A stretch of 47,001 bases of DNA from Candidatus Kuenenbacteria bacterium. GTDB lineage: Bacteria; Patescibacteriota; Patescibacteriia; UBA2196; GWA2-42-15. Location: assembly GCA_012797775.1 (NCBI GenBank), contig JAAZOM010000003.1:1-47001 (forward strand), written 5' to 3'. Shown piece by piece: positions 36,237-41,389 of this stretch. Positions within the stretch are counted from its first letter, which is position 1, and every line of letters starts with the position of its first letter. The position numbers and the translations under genes were made by a program. The notes under the pieces were generated by a model, which saw only the letters and a list, made by a program, of their open reading frames with translations, was not told where the DNA came from and ran no database searches.

Positions 36237-37754
36237 TTATATAGTCACTTCATTTAAAGTGGTTTTCATCTCAAGACCATTAACCAATTTATCAATATTC
36301 AAAATCCTCACTTCCAAACCATCTTTTTTGATGAAATCAAAATAACGTTCGGTATCAATAAAAGATTTTGGCGAGATAAAGACGGAATATGATTTTGTAC
36401 CTCTTTTTACATATTCCTCAAGGTGGCGATGTATGGAAAACGACTCTCTAATATGTTGCTGTGTTCCCGTTAGCAAGGTTACTTCGACTAAAACCGTGTC
36501 TTTATCTTCCAAACATTCAATATCAGGACTTCCGCCAGAAGCGAAGCTCGTCGGCAATCCTTCGTCATCTGAAACAAAATTTGGTTTTACGATAACATTC
36601 GGTAATTTTTTAAGGATTGCCAAGGATGTCAAAAATTCCAAGCGCAATGGCTGTTCAATAACTTTCAAGATATCATCACTTGAAGATTTTTTCTGTGCCA
36701 AATTAAGCAGTTCGTTTTTAATAGATTCCCAAGCGTAATGATTAACCCATTTTTCCAATTCCGCTTTTGTGGTTTTTGCTGGGGCTTTAAATACTGAAAG
36801 TGTTGAAATTAAATCGTGATCAACTTGCCCGATGTATTTAAAAAATTCTTTTTCCGTTTTAAATTCCTTGTAGGAAATATAGTTTTTCAAAATATAATCT
36901 ACGGTCGCAGATTCCTTTGTATTTATATCTATAAAACGACCTCCGCCACGCAAAGAAAACAAGCCAGTCAAGCGCATTTTTCGTATAAAATCGTCAGGAT
37001 AATCGCCGAGAATTGAATTATCATCTCGCTTTGTTTCGTTTAATAATTTATAGCAAAGATCCAAAACTACTTCGTTACTGGGCGTGTAGCTGTGCTTTTT
37101 GCGTAGTTTCTTTATCTCTTTATATAAACCCTCGGCATTGTCATCCTGCCAGCATAGCAATAACGGTATTTCTGCTCTGGATATACCAGCTCCTTTGTAC
37201 GCAGGATCATCATTCAAAAGTTTTATGGTTTGTATGAGCAAAATAAGCGGAACATTTTTATTTAAAACACGGCGAAACGGATTTTGGCGTTGATATTTTG
37301 CAAAAGCATTGGCAAAAACCATTAACTCGTTTTCTGGTTTTTCCTTGTCCAATAACATTTTTCCGCTTTCGGAAAATTTTATTTCTTCATTTTGCCAATA
37401 CCAAACAAGGCCAAGTTCTTTGGCGATTTTAAACCAAGTATCAAATCTTGATGGCCATCCTTTTTCAAATCCTGCTTCTTTGTGGCTTTGTGGATTATCG
37501 GAAAATACTTTTTCGGTCTCTGTTTCAGTTAACTCAACCTCGTTTTTCCATTTATCTTTTATAGCCGAAGACACCTTCATTGGCTGATATAATCCTTTTT
37601 GAATTAAGGATTTGGCGACTTTATCTATAATTTCATTTGTTAAAATTTCGCCGTCATATTCCGCAAGTACGGTTAAAAAATCCTTCAATCGTTCAGGATT
37701 TCTCATTGTAGTTGTAAACAGTAATGGCTTGTATTCAGATTGTCGTTTATTCAT
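36237..37754 (-). CDS. AlwI-family type II restriction endonuclease
   Basis: A 505-residue protein starting with [20 protein letters not shown], the signature of the AlwI family (type IIS enzymes and nicking relatives such as BspD6I). An N-terminal recognition region is followed by a C-terminal nuclease domain with PDIE (410-413) and VLVEVT (421-426), a PD-(D/E)xK-like site. Family members bind short asymmetric sites (AlwI itself GGATC) and cut a few bases away; the site here cannot be read from sequence. It lies 4 bp downstream of a Dam-class methyltransferase, with msrB 4 bp further on. Confidence 0.88.
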
Positions 37755-37758
37755 AAAT

Positions 37759-38664
37759 TTAATAGTTAGTGATCAAAACTTCCTTAATTATCTTTTTGCC
37801 GTTGTTATGATAATTAATGTAGTTGCTTTCAATTTTGTGTACTTTATATTTTTTCATCCATTTCAGCAGTAGGTCGTTTTTACTTCCGTTATAGTGAGTA
37901 ACATTTGATAAGGCAAACTTAACCCCCTTTTTGTCTAAGTCATCAATTATTTTTAATAAATCGGCCTCTGATTTTTGATTCCATAATTTATTATATTCAC
38001 TTGCGGATATTAAATATGGAGGATCTAAATATATAAAATCATTTTTTGAATATTTTTTGTCCGAAAAAAACTTTTTAAAATCTTTTGAAGTTATAGATAT
38101 TTTTTTATCATGCACAAAATCAAAGTATCCGTTCAGGGCGTTAACCACATTTTTATTAAAATCAACATTACCAACAGGTAAATTAAATTTTCCTCCGCCA
38201 TTAAATCTTAACATTCTATTGAATCCGTAAATAAGCAGAATATACAAAATCAGAGGGTCATTTTTCTGATAATTATTTACGCACAATCTCAATTTATCGT
38301 ATCCGTCTTTATTAAATCTTGCGTAATAAGTTTTTTTAAATTCTTTTTTTAGCGAATCAGGGACAATATCCTTTTTATATGAATGCGAAAGTTTATATTT
38401 ATGGATTATTTTTTCAGCGTCCTTAAAAAACCCTTCTGGATTTTTTGCACTAGCGATTAAAAGCTTATGAATATTGATTAAGTGTTTGTCTATATCGTTA
38501 AGAAAATATTTTTTCGCTTCAATATTCAAAAATACTGTGCCTCCGCCGACAAAAGGTTCATAAAAATTATTTATTTCTTTGGGAAATAAATTTACCAATT
38601 GTTTCATCAGCTTGTATTTGTCCCCGACGTAAAACAAAGGGGATCTTCTTATTTTGGTTGTCAT
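37759..38664 (-). CDS. adenine-specific DNA methyltransferase, Dam class (D12)
   Basis: A 301-residue N6-adenine methyltransferase with SAM motif I YEPFVGGGTVF (35-45), Dam-type NGGGKFNLPVG (155-165), and catalytic motif IV YLDPPYLIS (212-220). The N-terminal RRSPLFYVGDKYKLMKQLV matches the Dam/DpnM group. It presumably protects host DNA from the neighbouring endonuclease; if that cuts at GGATC, a GATC methylase would cover both strands (inference). Its ATG overlaps the stop of the RadC fusion gene by 4 bp. The coding region looks A/T-richer than the core genes. Confidence 0.9.
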   Translation of the reverse strand: MTTKIRRSPLFYVGDKYKLMKQLVNLFPKEINNFYEPFVGGGTVFLNIEAKKYFLNDIDKHLINIHKLLIASAKNPEGFFKDAEKIIHKYKLSHSYKKDIVPDSLKKEFKKTYYARFNKDGYDKLRLCVNNYQKNDPLILYILLIYGFNRMLRFNGGGKFNLPVGNVDFNKNVVNALNGYFDFVHDKKISITSKDFKKFFSDKKYSKNDFIYLDPPYLISASEYNKLWNQKSEADLLKIIDDLDKKGVKFALSNVTHYNGSKNDLLLKWMKKYKVHKIESNYINYHNNGKKIIKEVLITNY

Positions 38665-40469
38665 ATTTTTGCCTTTGTTACGAAAAGATATTCTTTGTGA
38701 TTATTAAAATTAGTATTGCCTGCGTTGAAATGCCTATAATTTTTTTCAAAAACCTTTGTTGGGCCTTTTTTTTGTAAAATCTGTTCAATCTCTTGGAGTG
38801 TGATTTTATTTTTTGAGGAGTTGCTTTTTGAATCGTATGTATTGTTGTACGAAACGACTAAATATTTTGCGTCAAGGTCTCTCACGAGTTCTGCAAATTT
38901 ATCTTTAGCGCTGTTTCGACAATAATCGCTCATATTTTCCGGTTCTGGCTTTAGAGCAACACCAAAAAGTTTTGGTTTGTCCCATTTAGTCAAGGTTTCA
39001 AGTACATGATAAAATCTGCTGTATTGTCTTGAGTTGTATGGCGGGTCAATATAAACGACATCAGCATTTATTTTTTTAGCTAAAGCGTTCGTATCTTCTT
39101 GAAAAATTGATATTTCTTGCGTGTCTATTGGGTCAATCGGTTTCATGAAAAAACTATCATTGATAAATTCCTTTTTGAAATAAGCGTCAAAATGTCCAAC
39201 CGTGTTGGCGATTTTATCGGCGGTATAAAGCAAAGAAGCGATTAACATGTAATATTCTCGTTCAGTTAAATTATTTTTATTTTCTTCTATATTTTCGCGA
39301 ATAAAGCCGATAATTTTTGCTGAATTTTTGCTGAAAAATTTGCCACCAAAATTTTTGGAAAAATAGTTTTCCTCTAAATCATCGCCATAAATATTATTAT
39401 AGCTTTTGATGATGTTATCTATTTTATTTTTATCCCATTCCTCATTTCCGAAAAAAGCACGATATATTGCGTAGTTTGAATGTAAAAAATCATTTAATAA
39501 AACTTTTTCAAAGTGTTTGGTTGCAACAGCGGATACAACACCCGTTCCTGCAAAAATATCTGCAAATGAATTTCCGCTACATTCTTTGTTGATTATAGAA
39601 AAAATCCATTCAATTAACTTGTGTTTATTGCCAATATACCTGCGATTGTGTAGCTGGAGATGGTTTTCTCTTACTTGTGGAATGTAAAAATAATTTTCTT
39701 GGATTTTTTCGGCGGTTATCTCATAGGATGGTCTTTCAGTTTCAAACATAGTAAAAAGCGTGCCCTGTATTCCATCTGCGACATAATCAACACTTGCTTT
39801 TTGTTTATTTAATTTTTCGTAAAAGCTGTAATGGTCGTTTTGGGAAACGACAATAAAATCAATAACAGGTATTCCCATTATTTCGCCAGCCTGTACTATT
39901 TTTTCAATAATTTGGTTGTCTTTTTCGCTTGGTGAAGAATCGCCCGAAGGGTGATTGTGAACCAAAATAACGCTGGCGGCGTGTAATTCAGTTGCGGGAT
40001 AAAAAATTTCTCTCGGATGTAGCAATGCTTTGTCTAAAAGGCCGACGCTAACAATTTCTTTTTTTAACAAAGCATTTCGTGCGTTTAAATAAAGACAAAC
40101 TAAATGTTCTTTTTTCTTATCCCTTAAGTCGTAAGTAAGGGATAAAACATCTTGAGAATTTTTTATAACAATCTCGTTGGTTTTGTTTTCGTCGTAAAAT
40201 CTTTTTACTAATGAAATTGCGGAAGCAATTTGCAATGCTTTTGCTTGTCCGATTCCTGAAATTTCCAAAAGATCATCAACGGTTATATTCAAAAAGTTTT
40301 TACCGAATTTTTTGATAATATTCTCAGAAAGTTGTTTAACATTTTTACCTTTTATGCCACTACCCAAAAGAATTGCCAAAAGATCACTTTTTGAAAGTGC
40401 ATCAGCCCCTTTTTGTAAAAATCTTTCACGGGGTCTATCAGTTTTTGGAAGATCCTTTATTTTTGTCAT
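38661..40469 (-). CDS. RadC-DNA adenine methyltransferase fusion
   Basis: A 602-residue two-part protein. Residues 1-223 form a complete RadC: an HhH-type region (LLEISGIGQAKALQIASAIS, 67-86) and a JAB/MPN domain with KKEIVSVGLLDKALLHPRE and the metal motif HNHPSGDSSPSEKD (171-184). After a linker (IQGTLFTMFETERPS), residues 275-602 are a D12-type adenine methyltransferase: RRYIGNKHKLIEW, FADIFAGTGVVSA (302-314) and VVYIDPPYNSRQYSRFYHVL (471-490). RadC's role is unknown. Here it is joined to a modification enzyme within a restriction operon, 5 bp after the nuclease-like gene and overlapping the Dam-class gene. Confidence 0.9.
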   Translation of the reverse strand: MTKIKDLPKTDRPRERFLQKGADALSKSDLLAILLGSGIKGKNVKQLSENIIKKFGKNFLNITVDDLLEISGIGQAKALQIASAISLVKRFYDENKTNEIVIKNSQDVLSLTYDLRDKKKEHLVCLYLNARNALLKKEIVSVGLLDKALLHPREIFYPATELHAASVILVHNHPSGDSSPSEKDNQIIEKIVQAGEIMGIPVIDFIVVSQNDHYSFYEKLNKQKASVDYVADGIQGTLFTMFETERPSYEITAEKIQENYFYIPQVRENHLQLHNRRYIGNKHKLIEWIFSIINKECSGNSFADIFAGTGVVSAVATKHFEKVLLNDFLHSNYAIYRAFFGNEEWDKNKIDNIIKSYNNIYGDDLEENYFSKNFGGKFFSKNSAKIIGFIRENIEENKNNLTEREYYMLIASLLYTADKIANTVGHFDAYFKKEFINDSFFMKPIDPIDTQEISIFQEDTNALAKKINADVVYIDPPYNSRQYSRFYHVLETLTKWDKPKLFGVALKPEPENMSDYCRNSAKDKFAELVRDLDAKYLVVSYNNTYDSKSNSSKNKITLQEIEQILQKKGPTKVFEKNYRHFNAGNTNFNNHKEYLFVTKAKI

Positions 40470-40474
40470 GGATA

Positions 40475-41389
40475 TTATTTACTTAAATCATAACTTTTTT
40501 TGATAAGTGCAAAAACTGCTTCAATCTCGCTTTCTCTTTCAAATTTTATTTCATAATCTCCGTTACCCCAATGGCCAACATGTTTGGGCTTAGTTAAATC
40601 TCTGGCTAAATTTTGAGGATCATCAAGCTGTCCACTTCTTACATTAAGAAAAATCTTTAATTCATTTTTCATTAATACAACATCTGTAAAATTTGTTGAC
40701 GTCTTATAGGCAATATATTTTGCCTTTGCTTCTTCAGTAATATTTTCGTCCAATGACATTATTTTCTCTCGCAAAGCTTGGAATAGACGAGCGGTTTGTC
40801 TGTGAGTTCTCGCAAGATGATAATTTATAGAATATGTTTTTTGCAACTGTTTATTTTTTTCTTTCCCCTGTTTCGCTTTTTTGACTATGTTTGATGTGGA
40901 AATTCTAACTTTCTGATAATTTTCTGGTTCAACATATAAAATGTTTTCATCATAAATACGGTAACGTAAAAGTTCAATATTTATAGGTAATATGTCTGCT
41001 GTGTCAAGATCAAATTTATTATAACTTTCAGCAATACAGATAACGCGAGGAGAATCCCAATCAATATCAATATCTATTTTTTTGTTTTGACATAAAATTT
41101 CAAAATCAGCCTTATGGTCAAGTAGCCAACGCAGATACGAAAGTCCTTGATTGATAACATTATCGTTTTGGTTTTTCTTGTATTCAATTATGCAAGGTGA
41201 ACCATTTTTATCTATACCAAGTGTATCAATTCTTCCACCAAAACTTGTCGAGTATTCATGAGCAAGAAAAACAATATTTAAAATTTCGTCTAAGTTCGCC
41301 TCAAATAATTCTTGAAGTTTACGCTCCAAATCCAAATCCCGAGCAACTAATTTTTTAACTGTTGAATTATTGATTTTAAATAGTGCCAT
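40475..41389 (-). CDS. DUF91/DUF5655 nuclease-like protein
   Basis: A 304-residue protein. The N-terminal part resembles DUF91/NucS-type endonuclease domains of the PD-(D/E)xK fold: GGRIDTLGID (Asp55) and PCIIEYKK (Glu69, Lys71) give the D...ExK triad, followed by a helix INQGLSYLRWLLDHKADFEI. The C-terminal part fits DUF5655: SLDENITEEAKAKYIAYKTS, LKIFLNVRSGQLDDPQNLAR and HVGHWGNGDYEIKFE. It is probably a DNA-cleaving or DNA-binding protein. First gene of the RadC-methyltransferase operon, 5 bp from the next gene, preceded by A/T-rich sequence and an extended -10 near 41500. Confidence 0.85.
   Translation of the reverse strand: MALFKINNSTVKKLVARDLDLERKLQELFEANLDEILNIVFLAHEYSTSFGGRIDTLGIDKNGSPCIIEYKKNQNDNVINQGLSYLRWLLDHKADFEILCQNKKIDIDIDWDSPRVICIAESYNKFDLDTADILPINIELLRYRIYDENILYVEPENYQKVRISTSNIVKKAKQGKEKNKQLQKTYSINYHLARTHRQTARLFQALREKIMSLDENITEEAKAKYIAYKTSTNFTDVVLMKNELKIFLNVRSGQLDDPQNLARDLTKPKHVGHWGNGDYEIKFERESEIEAVFALIKKSYDLSK

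Follow-up and report, generated by a model that had tools for sequence, protein, structure and literature searches.

A RadC-methyltransferase fusion in a candidate AlwI-type restriction-modification operon of Candidatus Kuenenbacteria

The 47,001-nucleotide stretch of DNA analysed here (the window; positions 1 to 47,001 of contig JAAZOM010000003.1, assembly GCA_012797775.1, from a Candidatus Kuenenbacteria bacterium) carries a gene in which RadC is joined by a linker of about 46 residues to a D12-class adenine DNA methyltransferase (Table 1). The open reading frame (ORF) listing gives an ATG start and no internal stop across 602 codons, and the ORF, Pfam and NCBIfam results confirm the preliminary description of the sequence, which had read the gene as a single open frame encoding a complete RadC followed by a D12-type methyltransferase; the methyltransferase is complete as well. 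The fused gene is the sole RadC match in the 930-kb genome. Its first part has the composition of the RadC family (PF20582 and PF04002, TIGR00608), namely a helix-hairpin-helix (HhH) domain followed by a JAB domain with JAMM residues. It contains the motif HNHPSGDSSPSEKD and exceeds the cut-offs of the NCBIfam RadC models. The JAB domain shares 40% identity with 2QLC and, besides its fold match to that RadC structure, weakly matches bacterial BubCD. The second part combines an S-adenosylmethionine motif (FAGTG, residues 306-310) with the catalytic DPPY (residues 475-478) in a D12 fold like that of Dam; MethyltransfD12 (PF02086) matches residues 278-531 (3e-36), and PADLOC models for type II methyltransferases cover residues 269-600. 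As had been expected of a structure prediction, the AlphaFold2 (AF2) model shows two folded domains, with a mean predicted local distance difference test (pLDDT) score of 84 and a less certain linker at residues 221-268. This model was built from an 84-row alignment and was used in place of an earlier, poor one from 16 rows (pLDDT 61).

The AlwI-type endonuclease gene stands beside two adenine methyltransferases, an arrangement kept in the intact relatives, and the operon is best explained as an AlwI-type (type IIS-like) restriction-modification (RM) system, with the fusion as its putative modification arm. The preliminary description had placed nuclease and endonuclease genes 4-5 bp from the fusion. 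The endonuclease is indeed in the operon, but the gene immediately downstream is the second D12 methyltransferase, which overlaps the fusion, and the endonuclease gene follows that one after a 4-bp gap. On the upstream side, the supposed nuclease is the DUF5655/PDC-S18 gene at the 5-bp gap. As the sequences flanking the other fusion loci gave no match to it, it is probably separate cargo outside the RadC-methyltransferase unit. It is a candidate defence gene in its own right.

Table 1. Positions in the window of the fused gene, its parts and the adjoining genes
Feature	Position	Strand	Size or residues	Evidence or remark
RadC + linker + D12-class adenine DNA methyltransferase, one gene	38661..40469	(-)	602 aa	ORF list, Pfam, full-length relatives
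RadC N-terminal helix-hairpin-helix	40236..40460	(-)	residues 4-78	Pfam UPF0758_N 2.4e-23
RadC JAB/MPN domain	39813..40166	(-)	residues 102-219	Pfam 1.2e-36; fold match 2qlc, TMt 0.89
Linker motif Q235-G-T-L-F239, putative beta-sliding-clamp-binding pentapeptide	39753..39767	(-)	residues 235-239	sequence conservation
D12-class adenine methyltransferase domain	38664..39665	(-)	residues 269-602	Pfam, PADLOC; fold match E. coli Dam
Second, Dam-like D12 methyltransferase	37759..38664	(-)	301 aa	directly downstream; overlaps fusion by 4 bp (ATGA)
AlwI-type restriction endonuclease	36237..37754	(-)	505 aa	RE_AlwI 3.9e-43; REase_II 7.3e-130
DUF5655 / PADLOC PDC-S18 gene	40475..41389	(-)		5 bp upstream of fusion

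The fusion is not an assembly join, because at least 16 other loci encode it in full length at 50-96% identity, one of them (L166/L182, 55%) on a 477-kb Nitrospirota contig. Codons 223 to 275, where confirmation of the frame had been sought, read through in independent assemblies: the linker is unbroken in L002-L008, L010-L012, L014, L015, L048, L049, L076, L182 and L183, and so many independent open frames rule out a join or frameshift artefact. A scan of species genomes gave 16 loci with relatives of the fusion, complete in most and 71-96% identical, in bins assigned to Patescibacteria groups, Margulisbacteria, Desulfobacterota, Atribacteria, Planctomycetota and Nitrospirota; surveys at phylum and order level contributed, besides L166/L182, the loci L018/L048 and L019/L049 (50-52%), L076 (59%) and L169/L183 (59%). 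As the bins may be mixed, this taxonomic spread is less certain than the architecture. Few genomes carry the fusion: it turned up in about 4 of 380 sampled from the phylum and in 5 of 297 from one order, if the HhH-only L185 is counted, and it has decayed at L009, L013 and L017. A viral origin was rejected, as the scan of viruses with RadC plus linker gave nothing and none of the 80 RadC loci kept from the viral alignment scan was fused to a methyltransferase. The plasmid and phage collections likewise held no full-length fusion and no record in which a single place spanned 80% or more of the query.

Where the methyltransferase is of the window type, intact copies retain the order of fusion, second D12 methyltransferase and AlwI-type endonuclease. 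The co-occurrence of the architecture with AlwI-type endonucleases, for which a test had been suggested, holds in the D12 class. In the other D12 type (L048, L049, L182) the second methyltransferase differs, being of the N6_N4 type. Purifying selection acts on all domains of the fusion, with ratios of nonsynonymous to synonymous substitution rates (dN/dS) among the eight closest copies of 0.049 for HhH, 0.044 for JAB, 0.12 for the tail and 0.027 for the methyltransferase. The JAMM residues E138, H171, H173 and D184 are invariant across the aligned fusions.

One RadC lineage is found on several METHYLTRANSFERASES, and the fused RadCs make a single clade in the tree. The same RadC is joined to a C5-cytosine methyltransferase in L047, L180 and L181, the last of which is interrupted by a contig end, and an HpaII endonuclease gene lies after the fusion in L047 and L180. 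In L179, from Nitrospirota, RadC sits on another C5 enzyme accompanied by an NgoFVII-like endonuclease. Vsr mismatch endonuclease genes lie beside the RadC-C5 systems of L179 (8588-10132) and L180 (2239-3752). The partners of RadC comprise at least four methyltransferase kinds, two D12 subfamilies and two C5 types. As a detail of L179, its endonuclease is matched solely to the C-terminal B3-like domain of NgoFVII.

In the RadC tree, L011 and L012 cluster with L048 and L049, and the RadCs of L076, L182 and L183 are placed close to that of the window; the methyltransferases of these loci cluster the other way round. A RadC tree constrained to methyltransferase type was rejected by the approximately unbiased (AU) test (p 2.8e-58 and 4.5e-70). 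The conflict between the two trees therefore means that RadC has moved from one methyltransferase to another as an N-terminal module. RadC is an exchangeable module and not a specificity domain: its swapping among unrelated methyltransferases rules it out as a target-recognition domain, and the part in target recognition that the preliminary description had suggested is disfavoured. RadC is also accessory, since the partner genes are kept both in L055, which has no RadC, and in L185, where the HhH part alone remains; the RadC-less systems L186 and L187 persist as well. One Atribacteria genome holds two RadC-methyltransferase systems (L008 and L076) whose methyltransferases belong to different subfamilies, and is a likely setting for module exchange.

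The linker holds a conserved pentapeptide. Q235, L238 and F239 are invariant in the alignment of 16 fusions. The motif takes the forms QGTLF, QNSLF, QKSLF, QVGLF, QETLF and QTTLF, and in the C5 fusions it reads QSSLF, QASLF or QFSLL. The motif survives the loss of RadC in L055 (QGALF) and L027 (QAPLF), and the HhH-only L185 has QATLPL. After the JAB domain of RadC-only proteins it is absent in 28 of 29, the exception being L037 (QKNLL). In the AF2 model it lies in the low-confidence linker (mostly pLDDT 53-70, about 53-62 in the motif block), with a short helix at residues 238-243. The consensus of ligands of the bacterial beta sliding clamp is QL(S/D)LF (PMC9690074). The putative motif matches this consensus and, as such a pentapeptide or as its six-residue variant within a flexible stretch, has the sequence characteristics of a client of this clamp.

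LexA takes the place of RadC in relatives of the window methyltransferase. A complete LexA (DNA-binding domain and S24 peptidase) is fused to an AlwI-type D12 methyltransferase in L056 (4892-6586) and L184 (4633-6327), a partial LexA-D12 methyltransferase fusion is present in L188 (3-1211), and an AlwI-type endonuclease comes after the LexA-methyltransferase fusion. All three loci carry the linker motif as QLPLF, and this LexA case together with QATLPL may lend partial independent support to a clamp motif. The domain content of the LexA fusions suggests SOS-linked restriction-modification. A search for LexA-methyltransferase fusions across one order returned their own genome only. The genome of L056 has an additional, separate LexA, and that of L184 also encodes a LexA fusion whose partner is a DNA methyltransferase of the N6_N4 type (L251, 2236-4137). 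Other relatives bear helix-turn-helix (HTH) domains at the N-terminus, an HTH_3 domain in L084 and HTH-like N-termini in L083, L034 and L080.

The association of RadC with methyltransferases extends to lone RadC genes. Among 60 RadC-only loci, sampled by similarity to the query, a strong N6_Mtase, a type I-like methyltransferase, lies no more than 4 kb away in nine, compared with 0.37 expected (about 25-fold); the expectation was taken from the density of N6_Mtase, the one methyltransferase class counted genome-wide, in the same genomes. In the phylum and order surveys, the five RadC-only loci nearest to the query are each followed, on the same strand, by a methyltransferase of the HsdM or N6_N4 type. 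RadC lies about 10 bp before HsdM in L073 (3932-12001) and L074 (6-2846), and in these two loci, L255 and L256 it is just upstream of HsdM/HsdS or in a same-strand run with them, with HsdR also present in L073. The connection of RadC with DNA modification that the preliminary description had drawn is real and recurrent, as seen in the full-length fusions, the four partner types and the operon adjacency to type I and N6_N4 methyltransferases.

Coupling with replication or damage, an aspect absent from the preliminary description, is what the conserved clamp-like linker motif suggests, as does the parallel fusion of LexA. We tentatively propose that the QxxLF tail would dock the methyltransferase on beta sliding clamps left on nascent DNA, where newly replicated, hemimethylated or re-synthesised host sites would be methylated ahead of cutting by the partner endonuclease. 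With its HhH domain and its JAMM metal site, RadC would act on the same nascent or damaged DNA, keeping it intact or accessible until modified. That a clamp-tethered methyltransferase and RadC act in this way on the same DNA, with host sites modified before self-restriction, is a possibility we put somewhat short of even. With slightly greater reserve, a class of RM methyltransferases may be tethered to the replication clamp by a conserved peptide and carry exchangeable damage-linked modules (RadC or LexA), which would couple modification to replication and damage and make RadC a partner of modification systems.

Several points weigh against this proposal. The activity assigned to RadC would be its weakest step, and the putative clamp binding rests on a five-residue motif, whose strict QxxLF form arises by chance in about 0.3-5% of shuffled single linkers. 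The RadC-type tails are homologous and hence not independent motif events, so that conservation, and not independent recurrence, carries the motif argument. The motif is also absent in the RadC-less relatives L028, L186 and L187 and in the HTH-bearing ones, and is therefore dispensable for modification as such. Furthermore, defence islands could partly explain the clustering of RadC with methyltransferases.

Alternatively, the JAB domain could be a metalloprotease for restriction control that is recruited to unmodified host sites by the methyltransferase, or by damage, and cleaves the partner endonuclease or the linker (a built-in restriction alleviation). Such a role would suit the JAB fold (2qlc, and the weak BubCD match) with its invariant JAMM residues, the occurrence of LexA, a self-cleaving protease, at the same N-terminal position, and the link of RadC to several RM types. 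However, the L185 system is retained despite the loss of JAB and the QxxLF tail would be left unexplained, and we regard a protease as unlikely. It is likewise unlikely that RadC is a nuclease, a function inferred for it in the literature and compatible with its DNA-binding HhH domain and with its links to RM of both type I and type II: in every fusion seen RadC sits on the methyltransferase and never on the endonuclease, each complete system has an endonuclease of its own, and RadC is not known to have nuclease activity, a 2025 review reporting that DALI shows no nuclease similarity (PMC11981726).

RadC as an autoregulatory DNA-binding module, setting the expression of the system like the HTH domains of other methyltransferases of the family, appears less probable still. 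The HTH_3, HTH-like and LexA (L056, L184) domains at the same position, and the retention of the HhH part alone in L185, are in line with it. However, sequence-specific DNA binding is unusual for HhH domains, a controller-like HTH_3 gene stands separately just upstream of the RadC-C5 system of L047, and the conservation of JAMM would lack an explanation. A neutral fusion, in which two adjacent operon genes of a mobile defence island merged by loss of the stop codon between them and the product was retained by drift, is very improbable: accidental joining would be easy where RadC so often adjoins RM genes, and the RadC-less systems L055, L186 and L187 persist, but both RadC domains have dN/dS of 0.04-0.05 with invariant catalytic residues, and at least four methyltransferase kinds were fused with modules swapped.

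The system shares with AlwI-family type IIS RM an AlwI-type endonuclease and two adenine methyltransferases in one operon, and differs from it in the N-terminal RadC and conserved QxxLF linker of one methyltransferase; relatives on plasmids are without RadC and can bear HTH-like N-termini. From HpaII-type systems, with which L180 shares HpaII and Vsr beside the methyltransferase and L047 shares HpaII, the C5 loci differ by fusion of the methyltransferase to the same RadC lineage. Whereas standalone RadC ends after JAB, a clamp-like tail and a methyltransferase are added here. RadC is likewise a fused module in the RadC-like DinG and polyvalent proteins of conjugative elements, where, in the portion of that literature considered, its partners are helicases or ArdC-N and a methyltransferase fusion is not mentioned. 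The fusion in the window is not itself a polyvalent protein of that kind, being a two-domain protein found in no plasmid or phage record at 80% coverage or more, as opposed to a large multidomain protein on a conjugative element or plasmid. No paper describing RadC-methyltransferase fusions was found in the open-access literature, and the fusion is a real, recurrent and apparently undescribed variant of type II RM.

For the widespread RadC no function is settled, its repair or biochemical activity being disputed (PMC3482391; PMC11981726); the repeated methyltransferase fusions and the enrichment of lone genes supply a concrete, testable partner. A methyltransferase on a sliding clamp has a precedent in DNMT1-PCNA (PMC9690074). 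The likeness would be a functional analogy, confined to the shared idea of recruitment by a short peptide, as DNMT1 is a eukaryotic maintenance C5 enzyme and the fusion, outside that family, is not claimed as its homologue. If the clamp motif is real, DNMT1-PCNA coupling would have a counterpart in bacteria, which would suggest how some restriction systems spare their own newly made DNA.
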